From the NCBI RefSeq assembly GCF_030770395.1, contig NZ_CP132480.1:4076317-4140316 (forward strand): DNA of 64,000 bases, written 5' to 3'. Every line of letters begins with the position of its first letter. Position 1 is the stretch's first letter. Shown here in pieces: positions 20,418 to 62,700 of the stretch. The notes under the pieces were generated by a model. The model did not search any database. It saw only the letters and a program-made list of their open reading frames with translations, and was not told the DNA's origin. Source of the stretch: Telluria beijingensis (lineage in GTDB: Bacteria > Pseudomonadota > Gammaproteobacteria > Burkholderiales > Burkholderiaceae_D). The translations under genes were made by a program, and so were the position numbers.

Positions 20418-21047
20418 TCAGCGCATGGCGCGACGGCGACGGACGAGCGCCGCCATGCCGAGCGCGAGCAGGGCCAGGGAGCCTGGCTCCGGCACGGCGG
20501 CGGCGACATCGACGCTGTCGATCCGCAGGCCGGCCACGGTGAAGTTGCCGATTTCAATGCCCATCGCGCCGTCCAGGCTGGTGAACGGCCCCTGGTTCCA
20601 CAACACGTTCTGGTTGTCGTAGTAGAAATTGCTGTTGGCATCGCCCTGGAATGCGAACTCGAGCAGGTATTGCTTGCCCGGGTCGAGGACAATGCCGGCC
20701 AGCGCATAATCGATCCAGTCGCGGCCATTCGTCGTCACATTTGAACCGCCGCTGGCGAGGCTGGACAGGCGCGTCAGCGTGACGCTCGACATCGAGATTT
20801 CGTACAGGCCGAACGTCAGGTCGATGCCGGTCAGGTCGTGCAGCAGGCCGACGCTCGTGACCGCCTGGCGCGAGTCGACGCCGAAGGTAATGCCACGGCC
20901 CATCCACCAGCTGTCGTTCCCGGCCGAGTATTCACTGCCGACGGTATCGTTGGGCGGCACGAAGATCACCGTTGCAGCGGCGGCGCCGCCGGCGCCCAGT
21001 GCGCAGGCGGCGCTCAGGATGACTGCTTGAACAAGTTTAGCGAACAT
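20418..21047 (-). CDS. PEP-CTERM sorting-signal protein (secreted, exosortase substrate)
   Basis: Start at ATG 21047 (MFAKLVQAVILSAACALGAGGAAAA), with GGAG 7 bases upstream and a sigma-54 promoter just beyond. An upstream in-frame ATG (21134) would lie before that promoter. The 209-residue product has a Sec signal peptide and a beta-rich Trp/Asn/Tyr-rich body of unrecognised family. It ends in a classical PEP-CTERM tail: VPEPGS, a hydrophobic helix (LALLALGMAALV) and RRRRAMR. Exosortase should cut at the PEP motif and release or anchor it at the surface, often in exopolysaccharide matrix or flocs. No exosortase gene is in this window. Confidence 0.88.
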   Translation of the reverse strand: MFAKLVQAVILSAACALGAGGAAAATVIFVPPNDTVGSEYSAGNDSWWMGRGITFGVDSRQAVTSVGLLHDLTGIDLTFGLYEISMSSVTLTRLSSLASGGSNVTTNGRDWIDYALAGIVLDPGKQYLLEFAFQGDANSNFYYDNQNVLWNQGPFTSLDGAMGIEIGNFTVAGLRIDSVDVAAAVPEPGSLALLALGMAALVRRRRAMR

Positions 21048-21080: not shown

Positions 21081-21096
21081 TGCAAGACCCATACCA
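21081..21096 (-). promoter_or_regulatory. Sigma-54 (-24/-12) promoter of the PEP-CTERM gene
   Basis: On the minus strand the sequence reads TGGTATG-GGTC-TTGCA against the RpoN consensus TGGCACG-N4-TTGCW, with the essential GG and GC at correct spacing. The expected transcription start is about 21070, leaving a 23-base 5' UTR before ATG 21047. Confidence 0.7.
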
Positions 21097-21158
21097 ATCT
21101 TGTCAATCCGTTCATAATCAATGACTTGATCCACAGTGATTGGAAACGTTTCCCATCG

Positions 21159-21177
21159 CTGTCAATTTTTTCGACAG
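21159..21177 (-). promoter_or_regulatory. Enhancer-like box (UAS) for a sigma-54 activator, copy C
   Basis: The minus strand reads CTGTCGAAAAAATTGACAG, a dyad with CTGT/ACAG ends. Its centre is 79.5 bp upstream of the sigma-54 promoter centre, the same distance as copies A and B at 35253 and 36169. Confidence 0.65.
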
Positions 21178-35252: not shown

Positions 35253-35271
35253 TTGTCGAAAATTTTTACAG
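35253..35271 (+). promoter_or_regulatory. Enhancer-like box (UAS) for a sigma-54 activator, copy A
   Basis: TTGTCGAAAATTTTTACAG, 19 bp, matches copies B (36169-36187) and C (21159-21177, minus). Its centre is 79.5 bp upstream of the sigma-54 promoter centre. Confidence 0.65.
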
Positions 35272-35333
35272 TAGGATTATTCTCTTAAAATAGAAAAACA
35301 GTAAGTATTTGTTTTCATTAAGAAATTGCTTTT

Positions 35334-35349
35334 TGGCATGAATAGTGCT
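35334..35349 (+). promoter_or_regulatory. Sigma-54 (-24/-12) promoter of PEP-CTERM gene 1
   Basis: TGGCATG-AATA-GTGCT differs from TGGCACG-N4-TTGCW at two positions and keeps the GG and GC at fixed distance. The expected transcription start is about 35360. Confidence 0.75.
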
Positions 35350-35445
35350 TGATAGTTGGTTATGATTCCGGATGTTGCTGTTGGTACTCGCAGCATTCCG
35401 GTTGAGACCGTTCTTCATCATGCACCTTCAACCAGTGAGATTACT

Positions 35446-36132
35446 GTGAAAAAGACTCTCGCCGCACTTGCAATCGCCGCCGCACTCGCTCCCGTCGCCA
35501 GCGCCCAGGCTGCAACCATCAGTTACAGCGCTACCAAGGCGATGACGACCACCAACTGGTCCGAGAACCTCAGCTTCAACAAGTTCGACAGCAGCCTCGG
35601 CAACTTGACCTCGATCACCTTCGACCTGAGCGGCATCGTGCGGGGCAGCGGCAGCGCCGAAAGCCTGGACGCTGCGGCCTCGACCGTGACCCTGACGCTG
35701 GGTTCGCTGCTGACCCTGACCCGTCCCGACAATACCACGCTGGTCGTGACCAATCCGGTGTTCAGCCGGGTATTCGGCTTCGCTGCACACGACGGCGGGC
35801 TCGATTTCGGTGGCGCTTCGGGCGGCACCACCGGTTCGGTCGACGCCAGCAATTCGAATTTCTTCACCAGCACTGCAGCGAGCGACTTCGACCTGTTTTC
35901 CGCACTGGGCGGCGGCTCTCTCAGCCTGGGCCTCGCCGCACTTGGCCAGACCTCTGGTACAGGCGCGGGGAACCTGATCACACAGTTCAGCACGGCAGCG
36001 GCCGGCACCGCGTCGGTCACCTATACCTTCACGCCGTTCGCCGAAGTGCCGGAACCGGCCAGCATGGCAATGCTCCTCGGCGGCCTGGGCCTGATGGGCC
36101 AGGCCCGTCGCCGCACCGGCGCCAAGGCATAA
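35446..36132 (+). CDS. PEP-CTERM protein 1 (choice-of-anchor E-like)
   Basis: The start is GTG 35446 (KKTLAALAIAAALAPVASAQA signal peptide). An in-frame ATG at 35356 lies at or before the predicted sigma-54 transcript start, so it is rejected. The 228-residue product has a beta-rich domain (NWSENLSFNKFDSSLGNLTSITFDL) that resembles the 'choice-of-anchor E' group. It ends with FAEVPEPASMAM, a hydrophobic segment and RRRTGAKA, a PEP-CTERM tail. It is paralogous to the next gene, including the 5' UTR. Confidence 0.87.
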   Translation: MKKTLAALAIAAALAPVASAQAATISYSATKAMTTTNWSENLSFNKFDSSLGNLTSITFDLSGIVRGSGSAESLDAAASTVTLTLGSLLTLTRPDNTTLVVTNPVFSRVFGFAAHDGGLDFGGASGGTTGSVDASNSNFFTSTAASDFDLFSALGGGSLSLGLAALGQTSGTGAGNLITQFSTAAAGTASVTYTFTPFAEVPEPASMAMLLGGLGLMGQARRRTGAKA

Positions 36133-36168
36133 TACCTGCGCACTTCCGGCGGCATGCCGGCTCGTCCA

Positions 36169-36187
36169 CTGTCGAAAAATCTTACAG
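36169..36187 (+). promoter_or_regulatory. Enhancer-like box (UAS) for a sigma-54 activator, copy B
   Basis: CTGTCGAAAAATCTTACAG lies 79.5 bp (centre to centre) upstream of the next sigma-54 promoter. Flanking bases extend it to a 9-bp inverted repeat (GTCCACTGT/ACAGTGGAC). Confidence 0.68.
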
Positions 36188-36249
36188 TGGACTGCCGTTC
36201 ATGCCGCTCGGGTAACGCAAGTCATTGTTTTGAATAAAGTATTTCTTGG

Positions 36250-36265
36250 TGGCATAGTTTGTGCT
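36250..36265 (+). promoter_or_regulatory. Sigma-54 (-24/-12) promoter of PEP-CTERM gene 2
   Basis: TGGCATA-GTTT-GTGCT keeps the GG and GC of the RpoN consensus. The expected transcription start is about 36276, after the in-frame ATG at 36259. Confidence 0.72.
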
Positions 36266-36324
36266 TGTATTTACGAAGACGCAGCCTGGACACATCCAGC
36301 GCACCTTCACCAAGTGAGATCACC

Positions 36325-37020
36325 TTGAAAAAGACTTTTGCCGTACTGGCGCTTGCCGCCTCCCTGGTTCCATTCGCAGGCGCGCACGCCGCCGTGATCA
36401 GTTTCAGCAATGACAAGGCGCTGACGAGGACGAACTGGACCGACCATCTGAGCTTCGGCAAATTCGATAGCAGCCTGGGCACCCTCAATTCGATCAGGTT
36501 CGACCTGACCGGCGTGATTCGTGGCAGTGGCAGCGTTGAAAGCCAGGACAGTGAAGCGACCACCGTCGCCTTGACCCTGTCCTCGCTGCTGACCTTGATG
36601 CGCCCCAACGGCACCACCCTGGTCGTGAGCAATCCCGTGTTCAACCAGATCTTCAACCTGGCGCCAGCCGACGACAATCCCGACGATTTTTCCGGCCCTG
36701 CGGGCGGCACTACCGGCACGGTGACGAAAAGCGCGTCGGAATACTTTATCAGCACCAATGCCAACGCCACCGACTTCGCCCTGTTCTCGGCACTCGGCGG
36801 CGGCACCATCAGCCTCGGCGTAAACGCGCGCGGCAACTCGAATGCCGACGCCTCCGGCAACGTGGATACCCGCTTCCGGACCAATGCCGGGGCCAGCGTC
36901 AAGGTCAGCTACGACTACACGCCATTCGCCGAAGTGCCGGAACCGGCCAGCGTGGCGCTGATCCTCGGCGGCCTGGGGCTGCTGGGACTGTCGCGTCGCC
37001 GGTTCGGCGGCAAGGCGTAA
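36325..37020 (+). CDS. PEP-CTERM protein 2 (choice-of-anchor E-like)
   Basis: The start is TTG 36325 (KKTFAVLALAASLVPFAGAHA signal peptide), by homology with gene 1, which starts at the same point with GTG. The 231-residue protein has the same beta domain (NWTDHLSFGKFDSSLGTLNSIRFDL) and the tail FAEVPEPASVALILGGLGLLGLSRRRFGGKA, given here in part as VPEPAS, helix, RRR. It diverges from gene 1 mainly in the middle. It is the second copy of a tandem duplication. Confidence 0.86.
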   Translation: MKKTFAVLALAASLVPFAGAHAAVISFSNDKALTRTNWTDHLSFGKFDSSLGTLNSIRFDLTGVIRGSGSVESQDSEATTVALTLSSLLTLMRPNGTTLVVSNPVFNQIFNLAPADDNPDDFSGPAGGTTGTVTKSASEYFISTNANATDFALFSALGGGTISLGVNARGNSNADASGNVDTRFRTNAGASVKVSYDYTPFAEVPEPASVALILGGLGLLGLSRRRFGGKA

Positions 37021-47391: not shown

Positions 47392-47715
47392 ACCTCGCCA
47401 TTTAAAAGAGCATTGAATAGTTTATTCACGGCAATGTTTATTTAAAGAAACTTGGCCAAGTAAATACTAATGTGATCGCTGGTAGATAATCAATGATTCA
47501 TATTAATTAAAATATTGAACGGCTTGTTTAACATTATTTATATCCACACGGAAACATTATGTCGCACTCCATCGCGGAATCTTTCGATTTTTAACGTTTC
47601 CCTTAGGTGTGTCGCGAAAAAACACAAAAAACGAAGCTAAAAAATTAATATCCAGCAATTTCTCTATCAGATCAAATTAAAATATTGCCTTTGATCATCT
47701 GAGAAATTCGGCCAA
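47392..47715. other. A+T-rich spacer upstream of the giant adhesin
   Basis: This 324-bp stretch is visibly far more A+T-rich than its surroundings and carries no convincing gene. It holds one promoter candidate (separate entry) and several AATT/ATTAAT tracts, such as near 47500-47515 and 47640-47690. Such regions are typical binding sites of H-NS/MvaT-like silencers. Confidence 0.55.
47515..47543 (+). promoter_or_regulatory. Candidate sigma-70 promoter of the adhesin gene
   Basis: TTGAAC (47515-47520), a 17-bp spacer and TTATAT (47538-47543) lie about 170 bp before the start codon. Confidence 0.35.
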
Positions 47716-50700
47716 ATGAAACAGCGTCGTTCGACCGCTTCCCCATCGATTAACTCTACCCAGGCAATTCATCGTCGCCGGCGCCTGCTGGCGCTCGAAC
47801 CGCGCATGCTGTTCGACGGGGTGGCATTGGTCGATCCGGCGGCGGAAGCGGCGCGGCCGGCCGATGCGCCGGCAGATACGTCGGCCGAATCGCAGGCCGA
47901 TCCGGCCCAGGCGCAGGTCTTGCCCGCAGTGGGCCGGAGCGGCGCCGATGCACGGTCGGACGGCGAGGCCGAGCCGATGCCGGCCCAGGACGAGGCGGTG
48001 ATGGCGGCGATCCAGGCCATGAATGCCGGATCGGCGCCGGAGACGGACGAGGCGGCGCAGGACGACGCCGGTACCGATGCGGCGGCGGAGGAATCGCTGG
48101 AGGATGTCGATGCCGGCGCGACCGACAGCGCGGACACCGCCGATGCCATCGACAGCGCCGACAGCGCCGACAGCGCCGACGACATCGACGCCGCCGCCAC
48201 CCCGCCCGCGGAAACGCCGGCACGGCCGCAGGCCGCGCCGTCTGCCGCCATGGCCAGCATGTCGGCGGCGCCCGCGTTCAGCGCCGCGCCGGGCGCCCAG
48301 CTGGGCCGCGAAGACAGCGACTTCGACTTCGGCACGATCTTCGACACCGATACGGGCGACGCGGGCCGCACCAGCCTGCTCACCGAGGGCATGACCTGGG
48401 ACGTCGAAGTGCGCGTCGTCAGCGGCGACGGCGTGATCAGCGACGGCAATGTGTCCGACCGCGAGATCAGCTCGCAGGGCGACCGCGACGGCGTCAACCG
48501 CTTCCTGGCCGGCCTCAAGTTCCGCCCTGGCGCCGACTGGAGCGGCGACGTGGCGATCCGCGTCACGGTCAGGAACTACGCCGACAGCAGCGTCGATCCG
48601 GTCACCCTGAATTTTTCCGTGAAAGTGCAGCCGGTGGCCGACCGGCCGGATACCGGTACGGTGTCCCAGCTGGCGCCAGTCGCCGAGGACGTGCGCGATG
48701 CGGCTGGCGCCGCGGTGGCGAGCCTGCTGCCGAACTTCAGCGATGCCGACGACGACGGCCTGGCCGGCATCGCGATCAGCGCCAATGCCGCCACCGCCGC
48801 CCAGGGCCGCTGGGAATACTCGACCGACGACGGCGCCAGCTGGCGCGCGGTGGGCACCGTGAGCCAGGGCTCGGCGCTGCTGCTCGACGCCACGGCCAGG
48901 CTGCGCTTCACGCCCGCCGCCGACTGGTTCGGCACCCCGGGCAGCCTGACCGTGCACGCGGTCGACGACAGCGGCGCGCGCAGCTTCACCAGCGGCGCCA
49001 CGCGCCAGACGGCATCCGTCACTGTCGGCAGCGACATCGACCGCGACGGCGCCAGCCTGGCCACCCGGGTCACGCCGGTCAACGACGTGCCGCAGACCGA
49101 AGACCTGGAGCTGGCGGTCGACAAGAACGGCAGCCTGGCGATCGCGCTGACGGCGTTCGACCCCGACCGCGGCACGAATTCCAGCACCGACGCCGCCTTG
49201 ACCAAGTTCGTGATCGTCGATATCGCCGGCCTGAATGGCACGCTGCGCATCGACGGCGGCGCCGTGGTCACGGCCGGCATGGAACTCACGACGGCGCAGG
49301 CGGCCAAGCTGCGCTTTACCCCGACCGCGAATTTCAGCGGCGCGGCCAGCTTCACCTTCCGCGCCGTCGATGCCGCCGGCGCCAGCAGCGAGACCAGCAC
49401 CGCCCATATCAGCGTGACGGCGCTCAACGAAGTGCCCACGGTGACCGTGCCCGGCCCGCTGGCGATCCAGGAAGACGCCGGCCCTGTCGCGCTGACCGGC
49501 ATCGTGGTCGCCGACCGCGACGGCGGCGACAACGTCGAGCAGGTGACCGTGACCGCCGCCCACGGCGTGCTGTCCCTGCTGGACAGCGCCGGCCTCGAGG
49601 TCAGCGGCGACGGCAGCGCCCGCGTGGTCCTGCGCGGCACGCTGGACCAGCTCAACGCGGCCCTGGCCGGCCTGTTGTATACCGCCGATGCCGACTACCA
49701 TGGCAGCGACACGATCCGGGTCACCATCGACGACCTGGGCAACTCCGGTCCGGCCCCGGCCAGCGCCAGCGACACGATCGCCGTCACCATCGCTCCGGTG
49801 GCCGACGCGCCGGTTACCGGCGAAGCCAACCTGGCGCCGGTGCAGGAAGACACCCTCGATCCGCCCGGCGCGACGGTCGCCGAGCTGCTGGACGGCTTCA
49901 CGGACGCCGACGGCGACCTGCTGGCCGGGATCGCGATCAGCTTCGACGGCAGCCAGCCGGGCCAGGGCCAGTGGCAGTATTCGGTCGACAGCGGCGCCAG
50001 CTGGCTGGCGGTCGGCAATGTGGCGCGCGGCGCCGCGCTGGCGCTCGATACCCGCGCCTTGCTGCGCTTCGTGCCGGGCCCGGACTTCAACGGCCGCCCC
50101 GGCAGCCTGACGGTCCACGCGATCGACGCCAGCGGCGTGCGCACGTTCAGCAGCGACGGCCAGCGCGTGACGCTGGCGGTGGCGCCCGCGGCCGACATCG
50201 ACGCCGTCGGCGCCGAACTGGGCACGATCATTACGCCCGATGCCGACGGCCTGCTGGTCGCGATCGACCGCAGCCTGCGCGTGCGCGAAGGCGACAGCGC
50301 GGTGCTGACCTCGAACGTCCTGAGCATCACCAGCCGCGATGCCGGTCCGGCCGACATCGTGTACACGATCCTGGCCGACGGCACCCAGCTCGATGCCGGC
50401 CAGCTGCGCCTGGGCGGCGTGCTGCTGCGCGCCGGCGACACCTTCACCCAGGCCGACATCGACGCCGGCCGCATCCGCTATACCCACGACGGCCGCGAGC
50501 CGGGCACCCAGGGCGTGGCCTACAGCGTCAGCGACGGCATCTCCACCGAGCAGCGCACGCTGGCGATCCGCGTCACGCCGGTCAACGACGATCCGGTGCT
50601 GTACGTGCCGGGCGACAGCGTGGGCGGCGGCGCGCCGCTGCAGGCCCATGTGGCGCAGCGCGGCGGCGAATTCACCTTCTCGCAGGATGCGATCCGCGTT

Positions 50701-53700
50701 GTCGATCCGGACAATACCGACGAGCAGCTCGTGTTCCGCATCGAGAGCCTGCCGGCGCACGGCACCCTGACCCTGGACGGGGCGGCGGTGCTGCCCGGCG
50801 TGGTGTTCAACTACGCCGACCTGGGCAAGCTGGTGTACACCCACGACGGCAAGGGCGCGAGCAGCGACAGCTTCCGCGTGACCCTGCGCGACGGCGCCGG
50901 CGGCAGCGCCAACGACGGCGCGGCCGCCACCATCAACCTCACCATCGGCAACGCCAACCACGCGCCGATCGGCATCGGCGACCTGGGCCTGGTGATCAAC
51001 GAAGATCCGGACAGCTACGGACAACAGGCCAACAACGGCAGCGCGATCCGCGACCTGGCCGGCTACCTGCTGCTCGACGTCGACCAGGGCGCCAGCGTGG
51101 GCGGCATCGCCATCGTCGGCAATACCGCCGACGCCCAGGCCCAGGGGCGCTGGGAATACCGCAGCCCGGACGGCCAGTGGGCCGCGATCGGCCAGGTGAA
51201 CGACCATGGCGCGGCGCTGGTGCTGGCGGCCGATACCCTGGTGCGCTTCGTCCCGGTGGCCAACTACCATGGCGAGCCGGCCGCCCTGCAGGTGCGGGTG
51301 CTGGACAATACCTATGCCGGCGCGGTCTCCGGCACCGCCGGCGGCGAGCAGCGGATCACGCTGGACACATCAAGTGGCCAGCGCGGCGGCAGCAGCGCGA
51401 TCTCGGATAATCTCAACCGCCTGGGCGTGAGCGTGGTGGCGGTCAACGACGATCCGATCCTGGTCGCCAACAAGGGCCTCGAGGTCGCGGCCCCGGGCCA
51501 GACCGTCACCATCGGCAGCGGGCAGCTGAGCGCCGTCGATCCCGAGGGCGACACCATCACCTACGTGGTCGAGACCGCGCCGGCGCGCGGCGTGCTGCTG
51601 CTGGACGGGAAGCCGATCGGGAAGGGCGACAGCTTCACCCAGCAGGACATCGGCAGCGGCCGCCTGGCATACCGCAATATCGACGGCGCCGAAGACAGCT
51701 TCAGCGTCACGGTCCGCGACGGCAAGTACAACGCGGTGCTGGAGCGTCCGGGCGGCATCTACGCCGGCGACGCCCTGCAGGTCATCGAGGTGCCGGTGGT
51801 GGTCGGCCCGGTCGACGGCGGCGACGGCCCCGGCATGGTGGCGCGCGACGACGTGCTGGTCACGCGCCAGGATACGCCGATCGCGGCCAACCCCGCCGCC
51901 AACGACGGCGGCGTCGGCGCGCTCACCATCATCGGGGTCGGCGGCGCCGTGAATGGCACGGTCGCGCTGGACGGCGGCCTGGTGCGCTTCACGCCGGCGG
52001 CAGGCTTCAGCGGCACCGGCTATTACGACTACACCGTGCGCGACGAGGCGGGCAATACCGCCAGCGCCCGGGTCACGGTCTACGTGATCGCCAACAACGA
52101 GGCGCCGACCCTGGCGCAGGCCCCGCTCCAGCTCGACGAAGGCGCGGTGGCGACCATCACCGCCGATCACCTGGATGCGCGCGACCGCGACAACACGCCG
52201 TCGCAACTGACCTATACCCTGGCCGCGCTGGCCGGGCTGACCAATGGCGCGCTGTACTACGACGCCGGCGGCACCCCGACCGCCCTCGGCAACGGCGCGC
52301 GCCGGCTGCACGCGGGCGACAGCTTCACCCAGCAGGACGTGCTCGACGGCCGCATCAAGTTCGTGCACGACGGCGGCGAGGATTTCATTTCCAGCTTCAC
52401 CTTCCGCCTGACCGACGGCGCGGCGCGCCTGAACCAGGAATTCACCTTCGACATCGACGTCAACCCGCTCAACGACCGCCCGGACATCGCCGGCGGCACC
52501 GTCAACGTGCCCAAGGGCGGCAGCGTGGTGATCGACAGCGCGGTGCTGGGGGCGAGCGACGTCGACGGCGTCGGCAGCGACAAGTCGACCGGCCATGCGG
52601 CGCCCGACACCCTGAGCTTCCGCATCGACGGCATGCCGCTCCACGGCGAATTGCGCATGGCAGTGGAAGGCCGGGTCTACGACGCGGCCGACGCCACCAG
52701 CTGGCGCGTGGTCGATACCGACACCGTGATCGGCGCCGCCGACCTGGCGCGCGGCCTGCACTACGTGCACAAGGGCGACGGCACCGCGGCCGACAGCATC
52801 GGCTTCATCGTCACCGACGATAGCGGCGCCGACAACAGCAGCAATAGCGCGCCGGTCACGATCCGCATCGTGCCGGTGAACGCCTATCCCGAGATCGTGG
52901 TCGATACCGGCCTGGTGCTGGAATGGGATGGCGACACCGTGGCCGGCAATGGCAAGGCGCTGTATGAAGGCGAAGGGAAGACGCTCGAGGTGCGCGACCT
53001 GCTCGGCGACGGCGACCTCTCCAAATTGACCGACCTGCTGGGCATGGACCCCGACAACAGCCCGACCCAGGTCCAGTTCCGCATCACCGAGGGCGTGCGC
53101 TACGGCGAGCTGACCCGCGACGGCCAGTTGCTGGGCGTGGGCAGCGCCTTTACGGTGCAAGACCTGATCGATGGCCTGATCCGCTACGAACACGACGGAC
53201 TGGAAACGCCGGTGGCGACCGGCGCCGGCGTGCACTCCGACTTCTTCGCCTATGTGCTGTCGGACGGCAGTGGCGGCAATGGCGACGATGGCGTGACCGA
53301 TCCGGACCGGGTCGAGCCGCCGGGCCGCTTCAATATCGACATCATGCAGGTCAACGATACGCCGACCGTGTCGGTGCCGGGCGCCCGCATTGGCGCCGAG
53401 GACAAGCCGCTGGCGGTCCCCGGCATCGTCGTGGTCGATCCCGACAGCCGGCGCCGCGACGGCAGCATCGATCCCGACCATGGCCCGCTGAAGGTCACGC
53501 TGAGCGTCGGCCACGGCAGCCTGACCTTGAGCGGCGCCGGCGGCCTGTCGATCGCCGGCAACGGCGGCGCCAGCGTGGTGCTGACCGGCACCCAGGGCGA
53601 GATCAATGCCGCCCTCGCGACCCTGGTCTACCAGGGCGACCGCGACTACAACGGCCTCGATCGCATCGAGGTGCTGGTCGACGACCAGGGAAACAATGGC

Positions 53701-56700
53701 GTCGATCCCGACCTGCCCGGCGTGCCGGGCGAGGGCGACGGCAGCACCGACACCAACGAGACCGTGCGCGCCAGCATCGACATCCGGCTGCAACCGGTCG
53801 ACGACGCGCCCGCGCATGCGCTGCCGGGCCGGCAGGCGCTCGACGAAGACACGAGCCTCGTGTTTGGCGCCGCCCACGGCAATGCGATCGTGGTGTCGGA
53901 CGTCGACGCCAACGAGACGCCCGGCGCGCAGCTGGTCACCACGGTCAGCGTCGGCCACGGCACCCTGACCGTCAGTGCCGGCCATGGCAGCATCGTTGCC
54001 AATGGCACGGAGTCGGTGACGATCCGGGGCACCCTGGACCAGATCAACGCCGCGCTGGAGGGCATGGTGTATCGCCCGGACGCCGACTACAACGGCGCCG
54101 ATACGCTCACCATCGTGACGAACGACCGCGGCAACACCGGCCTGGGCGGCCCGCTGTCCTCCAGCGGCACCGTCGCGCTGGCGATCGCGCCGGTCAACGA
54201 TGCACCGATCACCGAAGACCAGGCGTTCACAGTGGCCGAAGACGGCCGGTTGACCTTCAGCCTGGAGTCGCGCGAGGCCGACTCCGGGCAGGAAGGCGAC
54301 GGCGACGCCGACGTCGACCGCTACCGCATCGTCAGCCTGCCGCAGCACGGCGTGCTGCGGGCCAGCGACGGCACCGTCATCACCGGTCCGACCGTCATCA
54401 CGCTGGCCCAGGCCACCGGCATGACCTTCACGCCGGACGCCGACTTCAACAGCAGCAAGGGCGGCGTCGCCTTCCAGTTCACCGCGCTCGACAGCGCCAA
54501 CGTGGAAAGCGAGATCGCGACCGTGACCATCGCGGTGACCGCGGTCAACGACGCCCCCGAGATCGCGGGCGGCGGCGACACCGTTGCCTACACCGAAGGC
54601 CTGGGCGCCGGCGTGGCAGGCAGCCCGGTGCGGCTGGACGGCAATGGCGACGCCACATTGGTGCGCGACGTCGAACTGACCGTCACCGGCGAAGACGACT
54701 TCGCCGGCAGCAGCCTCACGGTGGCGCGCCAGGGCGGCGCGGTCGCCAGCGACCGCTTCGGCATCGATACCGCCTTCGGCGGCGACGGCAAGTCGGTCGC
54801 GCTCAATGGCAGCGTGGTGTCGGTCGATGGCCGCGCCGTGGCCACGCTGGGTGGGGGCAATGGCAGCCTGGTAGTGACCTTCAATGCCGGCGCCACCCGG
54901 GGCGACGTCGACGCGCTGATGAAGCGCATCACCTTCAGCAGCGTGTCCGACAGCCTGCAGGGCAGGATCCAGGTCGACGTCACCTTCAACGACGGCAATG
55001 CCGGCACGCCGCCGGCGCAAGGAGCAGGCGGCGCGCTCACCGATACCCTGACGTTCAACGTCGACGTGACGGGCACCAACGATGCGCCAGGCGCCACCGC
55101 GGGCCAGCTCGCCCCGGTGGACGAGGATGCCGGCGCAGTCGGGATGGATTACAACGCGGGCAACCTGCCCGCGGCGACCGGCGCCACCGTCGGCAGCCTG
55201 TTCGGCAGCCGCTTTACCGATCCCGACGCCCCGAACGGCGCCACGCCGGCCGGCATCGCGATCGTCGCCAACGCGTCCACGCCGGACCAGGGCCGCTGGC
55301 AGTTCTCGCTCGACGGCGGCCAGACCTGGCACGACGTGCCGCGCAGCGGCCTGGGTGAATCGAGCGCGCTGGTGCTGGAGAGCACCGACCGCCTGCGCTT
55401 CCATCCGGACCAGGCCAACTACAACGGCGCCGTGGGTTCGCTCGGCGTGCGCCTGTCGGACGGCACCGGCCTGGAGCGCAGCACCTCGAACGCCGACCTG
55501 AAGGCGCTGGCCACCGGCAGCACCGACGGCTGGTCGAACCGCACCACGCTCGGCACCAGCGTGCGGGCGGTCAACGACGGACCGGTGATCCGCGACCTCG
55601 ATGGCGACCACGTGGTCTTCATCGAAGCGGTGGGCGTCAATATCGCCGGCTCGGCGGTCCTGCTGGACAACGCCACCGACGGCAAGCTGCGCGCCAGCCT
55701 GTATGACGTGGAACTGACCGACCGCCTGGAAGCCACGTTTGCCGGCGCCACGCTGACGGTGCAGAACCACGGCACGGCCGACCTGAACGATTTCTTCGTG
55801 GTCCAGAACGGCGTCAACGGCATCTCGACCAGCGGCGGCTCGACCCAGCCCGGCCCCGACGTCAAGCTGTTCAACAACGGCTCGGCGATCCGCTACAACG
55901 GCGTGCACGTCGCCACCATCAGCGACAACAGCGCGGCCAGCGGCCGCCTGGTGCTGACCTTCACCGCCGACGCCACCGGGGAGGCGGTCAATGCCATCCT
56001 GCAGAACCTGGCCTACTCGAACGACAACGATGCGCTCGAACAGCAGCGCAAGACGATCGACGTCACTTTCTCCGACGGCAATGGCGGCGCCCAGGGCAGC
56101 GGCGGTCCGCTGTCCACAACGGCCCAGGTGCTGATCGACCTCAAGCCGAGCAATGACGCGCCGTCGTTCACGACCGGCGCCACCATCGCGACGCAGGAGG
56201 ATGTGGCCGCGAGCGAGCGCACCCTCGATTCCCTGCTGGGACAAAATTTCCGCGACCCGGACGGCGTCGCGGGCAACTTCGCCGGCGTGGCCATCGCCGG
56301 TTTCGACAATGCCGGCATCGGCGACTGGCAGGTCAGGCTGGGCGGCGAATGGGTCGACCTGGCCGAGCTGGCGCCGCAGGGCTTCACGGCCGCCAATGCG
56401 CTGCTGCTGTCGAAGGCGACCGAGGTGCGCTTCGTCGCCGACGAGCATGCCAACACCGATGGCAGCGCCAGGCCGGCACTGACCGTGTACGCGGTCGAGA
56501 ACCTGATCCCGATTGGCGCCGCGGTCGACAACGCACCGGCGCTGACGTTCAGCACCACCAGGGATGCGCTGCAGACCGTGGACACCACGGGCGACACGCT
56601 CGAATCGCGGGTGTCGAACAGCGCCGTCACGGTCGACGTGGCGATTGCCGCGCGCAACGATGCCCCGCTGCTGCCCACCAGCGGTGGCCGCAACAGCGCC

Positions 56701-59700
56701 TTCAATGGCGAGATCGAGGAATCGGCGGTCGCCGGCATCGGCACCGAGGCCCAGCAACTGGTGAGCAACGCCTGGCTGGAAGACCTCGACCTGGCGACCA
56801 CCGGCCGCCTGGGCGACGCGGTATTCGGCGCCGGCCGCATCACGGTGAACCTCGACGGCGGCGTGACCGCCGACAGGCTGAGCCTCGCGGGCACGCCCGC
56901 CGGCGTGGCCGGCGTCAGCGGCGGCGTCGACGGCGCCCCGCTGGTCATCACCCTGGCGCAATCGGCTACGCTGGACCAGGTCAACCGCGTGCTCGAGGCG
57001 ATCCGCTACGAGCATACCGGCGACACGCCGCCAAGCGGCACGCGCAATTTCACCATTACCGTCAGCGACGGCAACAACCAGCAGGCCGGCGGCAATGCGG
57101 GCGGGCCGGACCCGCTGACGGCGAGCATCGGCGGCGCGATCACCATCGTCCAGGCCAACGACCCGCCGCTGGTCGACCTCAACGGCAACGGCGCGGGAGA
57201 GAACCATGCGGTGACCTGGATCGAGGCCGCCAACGGCCCGCACCAGTCGCTGGCCATCGTGCCCGATGCGGTGCTGGCGGACACCGACAACGCCAACCTT
57301 GTGCGGGTGACCTTCACCATCGCCGGTGTCCTCGACGGCAACCGCGAAGTGCTGACCATCGGCGGCCACGAGATCGCGCTGGGCACCGACGTCGTCGGCC
57401 TCGAAGTCGGCGGCCTGAAGCTGGATTACGACAGCGCCACGGGCACCGTGCGCTTCGTCCCGCTCGATGGCGCCACCGTCTCGCTGGACAGCGTGCAGGC
57501 GCTATTGAAAGGCATCACCTACAACAACCTGAGCGAGGATCCGAGCGCCGGCACGCGCACGGTCGCCATCGAGGTGGTCGACGCCGGCATGGACGACAAT
57601 GGCGTCGACAGCCCTGCCAATAATCTGCTGCCGAGCAACCGCGCAACCGTGTCGATCGGCGTGACGCCGGTCAACGACCAGCCGCGCCTGTCGGGCCTGG
57701 ACAACGTCAGCTTCCATGAAAACCGGATCCAGGCCACGCCGGCCTGGCTCGACCGCGACATCACGCTGGTCGACCCCGACAACGTCGACTATGCCGGCGC
57801 CACCCTGACGGTATCGGGCCTGGCGGCCGGCGACCGCGTGTCGCTGCCGGCGTGGAGCGCCGACATGGATCCCGCGGCCAACCCTGGCGCCGTCGTCCTG
57901 CGCGGCACGACGATCCTGCATTCGGACGGCGCGGCCTGGATCGAGGTCGGCACGGCCAGCGGCGGCAACGGCGCCAACCTGGTGCTGGCGCTGAACGCCA
58001 GCGCCGACGCCGCGATCGCCGAACGCATCCTGGAACACCTCACTTTCGCCGTGAACACCGATGCGCCGCAAGCCACGCGCACGCTGACCTATACGGTGAA
58101 CGACGGCGCCGGCGGCCCCGCGGCGGCCGGCGTCGCCTCGCTCGAGGTGACGGTCATTCGCGACAACGACGCGCCGACCATGAGCGCGACCAGCATCGGC
58201 GGCGCCTACACCGAAGGCGGCTCCGCGCTGTTCCTGGTTGGCGGCACGATCCTGGTCGCCGATGCCGACATCGGCAACGGCAAGCTGACCGGCGGTTCGC
58301 TGACCGTGCACCTGGACCGCTACGTGGCCGGCGACAGCCTGGCGATTGCCCACCAGGGCAATGGCAATGGCCAGATCGGCGCCGCCGGCGGCGTGCTCCG
58401 CTACGGCAACGTCGTGGTCGGCAGCTACAGCGGCGGCGCGGCGGGCGACCTGGTGGTGACCCTGAACGACAAGGCGACGCCGGCCACGGTGAAGGCCTTG
58501 CTGGCCCGCCTGACTTACTCCAGCAGCTCGGACGACCCGAGCGTCGGCGTGGATGCGTTGACCCGTGGCCTGGGCATCACGCTCAGCGACGGCGGCAACC
58601 TGTCGGATCCGGGCGCCGACGTGCGCGGCCCGCTGTTCGCCGTGCTGGAGGGCACGATCGCGGTGCGGGCGACGGCGGATGCGCCGACCATCTCGGCCGG
58701 CAATGCCAGCTTTACCGAGAACGGCGGCGCGGTCGCGCTGTCGCCGCAGTTGACGCTGGCGGACAAGGACGACACCCATGCCAGCGGCGCCACGGTGCGC
58801 ATCTCGGGCGGCCTGCAGGCGGCCTGGGACCGCCTGGTCCTGGCCGGCGCGGTGGCGGGCGAGACCATCGCCGGCACCGCCATCACCTTCGGCGGCTACG
58901 ATGCCGCCAGCGGCACCCTGACCCTGACTGGCGTGGATACCCTGGCCAACTACGAGGCGGTGCTGCGCCAGGTCGGCTTCGACAACCTGAGCGAAGACCC
59001 GACCGGCGCCAACGCCAGCGCGACCCGCACCATCACCTGGAGCGTGGCCGATGCCGACGCCGCCGACATCGGCGCGGCGACCGGCGTGGCAACCAGCACC
59101 GTTACCCTGGATCCGGTCAACGACGGACCGACCCTGGGCCTGGACGCGACCGGCGACGTCCGCCACGTGCAGGGCGGCGCGGCGGTCGTCATCGACGCCG
59201 ACGCTACCCTGGGCGACCTGGAACTGGATGCGCGCGACAACTGGTCGGGCGCGACCTTGACCATCGCGCGCGCCGACGGCGCATCCGGCGACGACCGCTT
59301 CGGCGCCAGCGGCGCGCTGGCCTTGATGGACGGTCGCGTGCTGGTGGATGGCGCCGACATCGGCGCCTATACCCAGTCGGGCGGCCGCCTGGCGATCGCC
59401 TTCGGCGCCGGCGCCACCAGCGAGGCGGTCACCGCCGCGCTGCGCGGCATCACCTACGCCAACACCCAGGTGACGCCGGGCGCGCTGGCCTATGACCGGG
59501 TGGTGCTGCGGGTGACGGTCGACGACCGGAACAGCAACACCGGTCCCGGCCAGCAGCAGGGCGCGGGCGGCAATTTGACCGCTTCCAGCGACATCACGCT
59601 GCACATCAACCGCCTGCCGGTCGCCGGCGCCGGCAACGGCCAGGTGAGCGAAGGCATCGCCACCAGCGACACCAGCACCGTGGAAGGCGACGTCATCGCC

Positions 59701-62700
59701 GATGCGGACGACAGCGACGACGATGCGCTGACGGTCGCGGGCGTGGCGGCGGGCAGCGGCACGCCGCTGGGCGCCAACCTCGGCACGGACGTCGCGGGCA
59801 GCTACGGCAGCCTGCGCATGGACGCCGATGGCGCCTATGTCTACACCCTGGACAACACCCTGGACGGCGTGCAGGCGCTGGCCGTCGGCGAGCAGCTCAG
59901 CGAGGTGTTCACCTATACGGTGAGCGATGGCCGCGGCGGCGTGGTGAGCGCGACCCTGACGGTCGTCATCACCGGCACCAACGACGCGCCGCTGGTGACG
60001 ACCGCCGACCTGGCCGGCAGCATCGCCGAGCCGGTCGTGGCCGAAGGCGTGCTGCAGGACAGCGGCGACATCGGCTTCTCCGACGTCGACCTGAGCGACA
60101 CGCACACCGTCAGCGTCGCGCCACAGGGCGACCCGCTGGGCAGCCTGGTGGCCACCGTAACCGACGACACCACCGGCAGCGGCAACGGCGGCGCCGTGCG
60201 CTGGACTTACTCCGTCGACGCCAACGCGATCGAGCACCTGGCCGCGGGCGAGACCCGGGTCGAGCGCTTCGACGTGACCATTGCCGACGGCAAGGGCGGC
60301 GTCGTCACGCGCACGGTCGAGATCACGATCAGCGGCAGCAACGACGCGCCGGTCCTGGTGGACACGGTGCGCGAAGTGACGCAACGCGAGGATGCCCCGG
60401 CGCCGGACGGCGCGGTCGGCACCCTGGTGTCGGACCTGATCGGCGCCGGCGGCAGCAGCGACGCCGACGGCAGCGCCGCGCCGCATGGCATCGCGCTGAC
60501 CGGCATGGACAGCAGCAAGGGAAGCTGGCTGGTGTCGTTCGACGACGGCGCCAGCTGGGATGTGCTGGGCAAGGTGGGCGAAGATGCAGCGCTGCTGCTC
60601 GGCCCCGATGCGCGCCTGTACTTCCAGCCGCTGCCGGACGTGAACACGGCCGCCGGCGCACTGGCGGCGGGCCTCACCTTCCGCGCCTGGGACCGCAGCA
60701 GCGGCCAGCAGGGCGACACGGTCGCCATCGGCACCCCGGGCGGCAACAGCGCCTTCTCGGGCGCCAGCGACACGGTGGCGCTGCGGATCGTGCCGGTCAA
60801 CGACGGGCCGGCGATCGTCGGCCTGGATGCGGTATCGGTCAATGCCTCGCCCGACAACCCCTACCTGCCCGAGCTGGGCCCGGTCGTGATCGATCCGGAC
60901 GTCACCTTCGGCGACCGCGAACTGGGCGTCGAGCGCGACGACTGGAACGGCGCCAGCCTGGTGCTGTCGCGCGCCAATGGCGCTTCCAGCGACGACCTGT
61001 TCGGCGCCCGCGCCGGCGGTCCGCTGGCGCTGGCCGACGGCATCGTCACGGTCGACGGCGTCGCGATCGGCAGCTATGTGAACGGCGACGGCAGCCTGTC
61101 GATCGCCTTCAACGACGCCGCCACGACCGAGCGCGTCAACCTGATGGCGCAGAACATCACCTATGCCAACGGCGCCACGCTGCCGGCCTACAGCAGCGTG
61201 ACCCTGGACTGGCGCCTGGTCGATGGCAACAGCAACGACGATGGCGGCGGCGTGGCAGGCGCCGGTCAGGACCAGGGCCAGGGCGGCAGCCTGCAGGCGC
61301 TGGCGCAGATCGTCATCTCGCTGAACCAGCCACCAGTCGCCGTCGCCGATACCGCGGAAGCGGTGGAAGCGGGCGGCGTCAGGAATGCCGGCGCCGGGAC
61401 CGACCCGAGCGGCAATGTGCTGACCAACGACACCGATCCTGACCACGGCGACACCAAGGCGGTGACCACGGCCGGCACCTTCCAGGGCCTCTACGGCACC
61501 CTGGAGCTGGCGGAAGACGGCAGCTACACCTATACCGTCGACAATGCGCTGCTGGCGGTCGAACGCCTGCGCCTGGCCGGCGACACGCTCACCGACAGCT
61601 TCGACTACACGATGCGCGACGCGGCCGGTCTCACCAGCTCGTCCACCCTGACGATCACCATCCGGGGCGCCAACGACGCGCCGGTGGCGGTGAACGACAC
61701 CGCCATCGCGGTGGAGGCGGGCGGCGTCGCCAACGGGACGGCCGGGGTGAACCCGACCGGCAATGTGCTGGCCAACGATACCGACGTCGACGCCGGCGAC
61801 AGCAAGACGGTGACCACCACCGGCGAACTGGCAGGCGCCTACGGCACATTGACCCTGAATGCCGACGGCAGCTACAGCTATGTGGTCGACAACGCCAATG
61901 CCGCGGTGCAGGCCTTGCGCACCGCCGGCGACACCCTGCTCGATACCATCAGCTACACGATGGTGGATGCGGCCGGGGCGACCAGCAGCGCGACCATCGC
62001 CATCACGATCCAGGGCGCCAACGATGCGCCGGTCGCCGTGAACGATACCGCCGAGGCGGTGGAAGCGGGCGATGGCGCCGGGGTCGACCCGACCGGCAAT
62101 GTGCTGGCCAACGATACCGACGTCGATGCCGGCGACAGCAAGACCGTCACCACCACCGGCGTGCTGGAAGGCGCTTACGGCAGCTTGAGCCTGAACGCCG
62201 ACGGCAGCTACAGCTACGAGGTCGACAACACGAACGCCGCGGTGCAGGCGCTGCGCACGTCCAGCGACACGCTGGTCGACACCATCGCCTACACGATGGT
62301 CGACAAGGCCGGCGCGACCAGCAGCGCGACCCTGACGATCACGATCCGCGGCGCCAACCATGCGCCGGTCGCCGTCAACGATACCGCCATCGCGGTGGAA
62401 GCGGGCGGCGTGGCCAACGGGACGGCCGGGGTGAACCCGACCGGCAATGTGCTGGCCAACGATACCGACGTCGATGCGGACGATACCAAGACCGTCACCA
62501 CGACCGGCGAACTGGCAGGCGCCTACGGCACGCTGACCCTGAACGCGGACGGCAGCTACAGCTATGTGGTCGACAATGCCAACGCCGCGGTGCAGGCGCT
62601 GCGCACGGCCAGCGACACCCTGGTCGACACCATCAGTTATACGATGGTCGATGCCGGCGGCGCCACCAGCAGCGCGACCTTGACCATCACGATCCAGGGC

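Follow-up and report, generated by a model that had tools for sequence, protein, structure and literature searches.

The 64,000-nucleotide stretch of Telluria beijingensis DNA analyzed here (the window) carries three genes for PEP-CTERM proteins, two in tandem and one unlinked, and upstream of each a short box precedes a sigma-54 promoter at one and the same distance. The locus raises the question of what this repeated arrangement consists of, and of what keeps its parts so regularly spaced. The original prediction, made from the letters of the window, described a two-part sigma-54 control module at exact spacing, named PrsR as the candidate activator, and knew of no published form of the box.

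Boxes, promoters and genes in the window

The letters and coordinates of the three boxes and three sigma-54 sites are as first described. The box of gene 1, a putative PrsR site, occupies 35253..35271 on the forward strand, with a 17-bp core at 35254-35270; a box scan of the window places that of gene 2 at 36169..36187 (forward strand) and that of gene 3, a near-perfect dyad, at 21159..21177 (reverse strand). The corresponding -24/-12 promoters, recognized by sequence, are TGGCATGAATAGTGCT (35334..35349, forward), TGGCATAGTTTGTGCT (36250..36265, forward) and TGGTATGGGTCTTGCA (21081..21096, reverse). Calculated from these coordinates, box and promoter lie 79.5 bp apart, centre to centre, at the tandem genes 1 and 2 and at the unlinked gene 3, just as predicted. 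With up to three mismatches allowed, the box matches three places in the window, where shuffling gives a mean of 0.01, and TGGYAYN6TGC occurs only three times on the two strands, each time upstream of a PEP-CTERM gene; the best box for each of these sites leaves a gap of 63 bp between the 17-bp core and the TGG. All three boxes have eleven bases from TGT to ACA, and most boxes recovered in this study can be written TGTCG-N7-TTACA, an imperfect 17-bp dyad. Between the box of gene 3 and the IHF-like core described below lies a palindrome, GGAAACGTTTCC (21142-21153), and a stretch resembling it, GGAAACGTTACC, occurs in one module match from another genome (G056:C4:445413-445507).

Gene 1 (35446..36132, forward strand, 228 aa) and gene 2 (36325..37020, forward strand, 231 aa) both encode PEP-CTERM proteins with a choice-of-anchor E domain, assigned with NCBIfam and Pfam on the longer frames 35356-36129 and 36259-37017; the GTG start of gene 1 was picked by eye from the signal peptide, and the TTG start of gene 2 likewise by eye. 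Gene 3 (20418..21047, reverse strand, 209 aa), assigned with the same two databases, has no match to the choice-of-anchor E family. All three proteins score above cut-off for both TIGR02595 and PF07589. The tandem genes 1 and 2 are paralogous (137 identities over 231 columns), and the equal spacing at these two may therefore represent one event, a joint duplication. Elsewhere in the window, the reverse strand of 47695-63975 holds three consecutive very long open frames of 1191, 1999 and 2157 aa.

It is in the matter of novelty that the original prediction fails. Haft et al. (2006; PMC1569441), in their section on motifs, describe a 17-nt motif ending in TTTACA, followed after a spacer of mean 62.8 nt (SD 10.6) by a sigma-54 site; the pair precedes 99 of 167 proteobacterial PEP-CTERM genes, and the first motif was proposed to be an activator site. 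The 63-nt gap of the window falls inside the published spacer range of 32-92 nt, and the three box cores end in TTTACA (gene 1), CTTACA (gene 2) and TTGACA (gene 3), a comparison made against the published description in words. The length, 3' end, spacing and context of the box lead us to take it for this first motif. On that identification the cis-element is an instance of a published one, and the box as such is not new: a motif length of 17 nt, the spacing of about 63, the -24/-12 site, the PEP-CTERM genes and a genomic PrsR are common to both systems. Where the published section on motifs reports a single mean spacing and mentions no further element, however, the present analysis finds discrete registers and an IHF-like element. 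A further precedent is pepA of Aquincola tertiaricarbonis, a PEP-CTERM gene with a mapped -24/-12 start and dependence on RpoN1, for which the authors mention a predicted upstream enhancer (PMC9850573); the account of this promoter, as far as it was available to us, differs from ours in containing neither an IHF site nor a spacing analysis nor PrsR binding.

PrsR as the candidate activator

Across the source genome, the box by itself is not specific: allowing two mismatches, it has 19 matches against 15 for a reversed control, and five of the 19 precede PEP-CTERM genes. Box and sigma-54 site together are specific, with ten matches against none for the control, and the eight of these that were examined precede PEP-CTERM genes.

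The source genome also contains the proteins that such a system would use. PrsK (TIGR02916, 811 bits) and PrsR (TIGR02915, 743 bits) are encoded side by side some 0.7 Mb away from the window, with the gene for exosortase A (XrtA) about 10 kb from them, and one protein scores above cut-off for IHF-alpha (ihfA). PrsR comprises a receiver domain, a sigma-54 activator domain and a Fis-type DNA-binding domain. Among 79 genomes of the family, with PrsR scored by its curated cut-off and a module match defined by a gap of 46-76, PrsR is present in 29 and at least one module match in 32. The two coincide strongly: 25 of the 29 PrsR-positive genomes have a module match, against 7 of the 50 PrsR-negative ones (Fisher p 1.8e-10), and 43 of the 79 have neither. 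Of the four genomes with PrsR and no module match in this range, one (G050) shows a module at the longer gap of 85. Two PrsR proteins above cut-off occur in five of the 29 PrsR-positive genomes (G011, G045, G052, G067, G075).

It is conceivable that the box is bound by a sigma-54 activator other than PrsR. Eight proteins of the source genome match TIGR02915 above 190 bits, and seven PrsR-negative genomes do carry a module match; NifA sites, TGT-N10-ACA, also look similar. Yet only one of the eight proteins exceeds the cut-off, and of the seven genomes, five have a single box lacking TTACA and the other two are assemblies 91% and 86% complete. The NifA site has ten bases between TGT and ACA, and the window boxes have eleven. 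Haft et al. (2006), moreover, reached PrsR, together with PrsK and PrsT, from the phylogenetic profile of the same motif, with 13 species for PrsR (PMC1569441). We consider another activator very improbable. A sigma-54 activator is also noted near PEP-CTERM genes, with no sites given in the part of the report concerned (PMC5744179). Both co-occurrence and the published profile lend good support to the predicted combination of activator site and RpoN promoter, PrsR being the candidate, and we regard PrsR as the putative ligand of the box.

Spacing registers and an IHF-like element

The exact spacing of the original prediction holds at the three window genes and loosens beyond them. A weighted scan covered the regions upstream of 25 of the 27 PEP-CTERM genes of the source genome (L077 and L083, which have no upstream sequence, were left out), and 12 regions scored above all 1000 shuffled scans. 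One of these, L079, passed on score, but its promoter half contributed 2.3 bits and the match lay 307 nt upstream of the start used, and it was dropped; with window gene 2 (L072) added, the genome total is again 12 modules. Their gaps from box core to TGG are 41, 50, 52, 62, 63 (four times), 72, 72, 73 and 75, so that the 63 bp of the window is one value in a range of 41-75.

These gaps are not spread evenly. The family genomes yielded 114 matches (five from the source genome), 97 with TTACA and 17 without. The gaps of the 97 fall at 49-55 (13 promoters), 60-64 (71) and 73-76 (13), with none at 56-59 or 65-72. The 17 show no group periodicity (1016 of 2000 nulls reach the observed value), although seven have gaps of 62-64 and could be genuine boxes, which makes the set only a rough control. 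A scan of GTDB species genomes found at least 80 loci, in records titled alpha-, beta-, gamma- and deltaproteobacteria and in one Nitrospira MAG. Among the 80 GTDB matches listed, the gaps fall at 49-55 (16), 59-65 (47) and 72-76 (17), with none at 56-58 or 66-71, a periodicity reached by 0 of 5000 uniform nulls. Downstream of these 80 listed loci, 53 frames have PEP-CTERM-like ends by regular expression, and 48 of 75 match NCBIfam TIGR02595 at E <=0.05 (L138, L146, L178, L179 and L209 left out); some of the non-matching frames are cut by contig ends, some were wrongly chosen and some lack PEP-CTERM, and at L165 the PEP-CTERM tail sits in another frame than the one chosen. Scans of the 29 PrsR genomes over a wider range of gaps gave nine matches, two already known and seven new, at 41, 83, 83, 84, 85, 95 and 96; one of these (L345, gap 83) has neither a PEP-CTERM frame nor a good IHF-like core and may be a chance match.

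Overall, the gaps form classes at 41, 49-55, 59-65, 72-76, 83-85 and 95-96, empty between. The register means are 41.0, 51.5, 62.3, 74.7, 83.8 and 95.5, the outer ones resting on 1 to 4 sites; single steps range from 9.1 to 12.4 bp, a line through the means has a slope of 10.9 bp per register, and free fits give a period of 11.3 to 12.1. The period is thus about one helical turn, its exact value not fixed, and the rule is better worded in terms of helical phase, which is fixed while several distances are allowed, than as the fixed distance first proposed.

Equal spacings might instead reflect common descent of the promoters, and the paralogy of genes 1 and 2 would fit such an origin. The rest of the evidence makes a mere legacy of descent extremely unlikely as a general explanation. 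In the window, the 30 nt from the box to the IHF-like core agree pairwise at just 8, 8 and 6 of 30 positions. Filtering the family and listed GTDB sets for spacers with over 20% of their 6-mers in common leaves 162 of 177, with the registers unchanged, and no identical module is common to the two sets, although species may overlap. The taxonomic span of the listed GTDB matches likewise argues against such an origin. A mechanical rule remains the reading that we prefer.

A possible basis for such a rule lies between box and promoter. At gene 1, a core TAAGTATTTGTTT (35302..35314, forward strand) differs at one position from YAANNNNTTGATW, the consensus for IHF; gene 2 has CAAGTCATTGTTT (36218..36230, forward strand, one mismatch) and gene 3 CAAGTCATTGATT (21116..21128, reverse strand, no mismatches). 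Each lies 19 nt from the TGG, and pairwise the three agree at 10, 9 and 12 of 13 positions. Box and promoter are real, but the two-part description was incomplete, as all three promoters also have an IHF-like element, each time at the same position. IHF-assisted sigma-54 promoters, such as nifH and Pu, are familiar.

The motif was first spotted by eye in the family matches and tested afterwards. A motif-free, base-by-base profile aligned on the TGG is conserved from -31 to -16, where its letters spell the IHF consensus in a single orientation. Counting as in place any core with at most one mismatch to that consensus, 16-21 nt 5' of the TGG, we find one at 63 of the 97 family promoters (shuffle mean 0.87, maximum 4) and at 30 of the 80 GTDB matches listed (mean 0.54, maximum 3), mostly 18-20 nt from the sigma-54 site. 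Cores in the opposite orientation are in place at 5 of 97 and 4 of 80, respectively. A separate opposite-orientation IHF-like match occurs 6-7 nt 5' of the TGG in 18 of the 177 spacers (shuffle mean 0.46, maximum 3).

A core in place is absent from 34 of the 97 family promoters and 50 of the 80 GTDB matches listed, and IHF would therefore not be universal; 5 of the 12 source-genome modules also lack one. Presence varies with register: 4 of 13 short-register family promoters have a core in place against 50 of 71 in the main register (p 0.01), and the listed GTDB matches give 3 of 16 (short), 24 of 47 (main) and 3 of 17 (long). The source-genome module at gap 41 (L080) has its IHF-like core 8 nt from the TGG. 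Among the 184 spacers of all sets, including the listed GTDB loci, there are 112 cores, of which 100 fall on a grid of box-to-core distances of 20, 31, 42 and 52 (with 9.5 unfilled) and core-to-TGG distances of 8, 19 and 30; the bins were set post hoc, and shuffled spacers give 12 cores per set, 20% of them on the grid. That 100 of 112 cores lie on this grid suggests that either arm can vary, by about whole turns.

Might the two-part PrsR/sigma-54 module be all that is real, with the middle a static A/T-rich bend or the site of some other protein? The spacers are indeed AT-rich (36% GC), many promoters lack a good core, and a study of the orp operons of Desulfovibrio vulgaris notes that A/T-rich curvature can stand in for IHF (PMC3897727). 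Base composition, however, accounts poorly for the cores: letter shuffles of the same spacers yield about one in place against the 63 observed, and orientation is biased, 63 against 5 of 97. Nor is a core in place found at any of 30 sigma-54-like control sites (30 of 71 matches, from 31 of the 50 PrsR-negative genomes), which are more GC-rich and several of which lie in long open frames. In the source genome, seven of the 11 TGGCAYGN4TTGCW sites fall outside any module, and all seven lack a core in place. We judge a static bend or another protein's site unlikely, and the third element, which matches the IHF consensus, appears to be a probable DNA-bending site, with IHF as its putative ligand.

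A published parallel for the IHF-assisted layout is again the orp operons, where an IHF site lies between an activator site and a -24/-12 promoter (PMC3897727); the activator and its box are different there, and the present case adds a grid of core position and arm lengths over many promoters. A result that may speak against IHF as a helper comes from Geobacter sulfurreducens, in which a PEP-motif gene, GSU1943, does not fall but rises about threefold in two ihf mutants (PMC7962754). A word search of the open-access literature did not find PEP-CTERM promoters joined with IHF, and the papers that name both PEP-CTERM and integration host factor do not link the two in the passages concerned. The IHF-like element and the helical registers are in no paper found.

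Proposed mechanism, further targets and significance

Taken together, these observations lead us to hold with fair confidence that each of the three genes is under the control of a sigma-54 promoter with three elements, its PrsR box, IHF site and -24/-12 site all on fixed faces of the helix. Assuming the usual placement of the -24 element, the box would lie at about -106 to -90 and the IHF site at about -58 to -46. By analogy with what is known of these protein families, PrsK would phosphorylate PrsR, which would then bind the imperfect dyad; IHF would bend the DNA between box and promoter, such that PrsR approaches the sigma-54 polymerase from the correct face of the helix; and the PrsR ring would contact the polymerase, remodel it with ATP and open the promoter. 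The PEP-CTERM proteins would thereby be switched on, and exosortase A would then sort them. Because the loop would be short and bent at one point, either arm seems able to change in length only by about a whole turn; a regular phase is what such a loop would require, and a constraint on helix face may well be the cause of the register lattice. We think it likely that box, IHF site and promoter obey a two-arm helical grammar in which each arm gains or loses whole turns.

The module may also serve targets of other kinds. In three records titled as Gammaproteobacteria MAGs, what follows a module with gap 75 is no gene but about 220 nt of conserved sequence (L150:889-1118, L161:2749-2969, L183:3684-3905), in which a hairpin, itself conserved, is accompanied by A-rich repeats and an intrinsic terminator; it is a candidate sigma-54-driven small RNA. 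Its predicted fold has 40 pairs, seven with both sides changed, among three sequences only. The A-rich repeats resemble those of CrcZ; the Rfam CrcZ match in L183 scores 19.3 bits, far under the cut-off of 95 bits. Cobalamin riboswitches lie at L150:1990-2229 and L161:3838-4087, just 3' of the ABC-ATPase gene located downstream of the small-RNA candidate. In a Geomonas record (L168), a module lies upstream of a Crp/Fnr-like regulator gene, a possible non-PEP-CTERM target.

What deserves to be kept from this analysis is the three-element anatomy, together with the phase grid. They turn what had been a loose published spacing into a rule, one that may tell in advance which promoters are functional. 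With its many naturally occurring length variants, this single putative regulon offers a test of the way in which a bend made by IHF brings an activator to the sigma-54 polymerase; if the two-arm grammar is true, the regulon amounts to a natural experiment, and a large one, on how the face of the helix governs an activator loop bent by IHF, and phase, not distance, would be the guide to predicting its promoters. For the bacteria concerned, such a rule could sharpen the prediction of the exosortase targets tied to flocs and exopolysaccharide.
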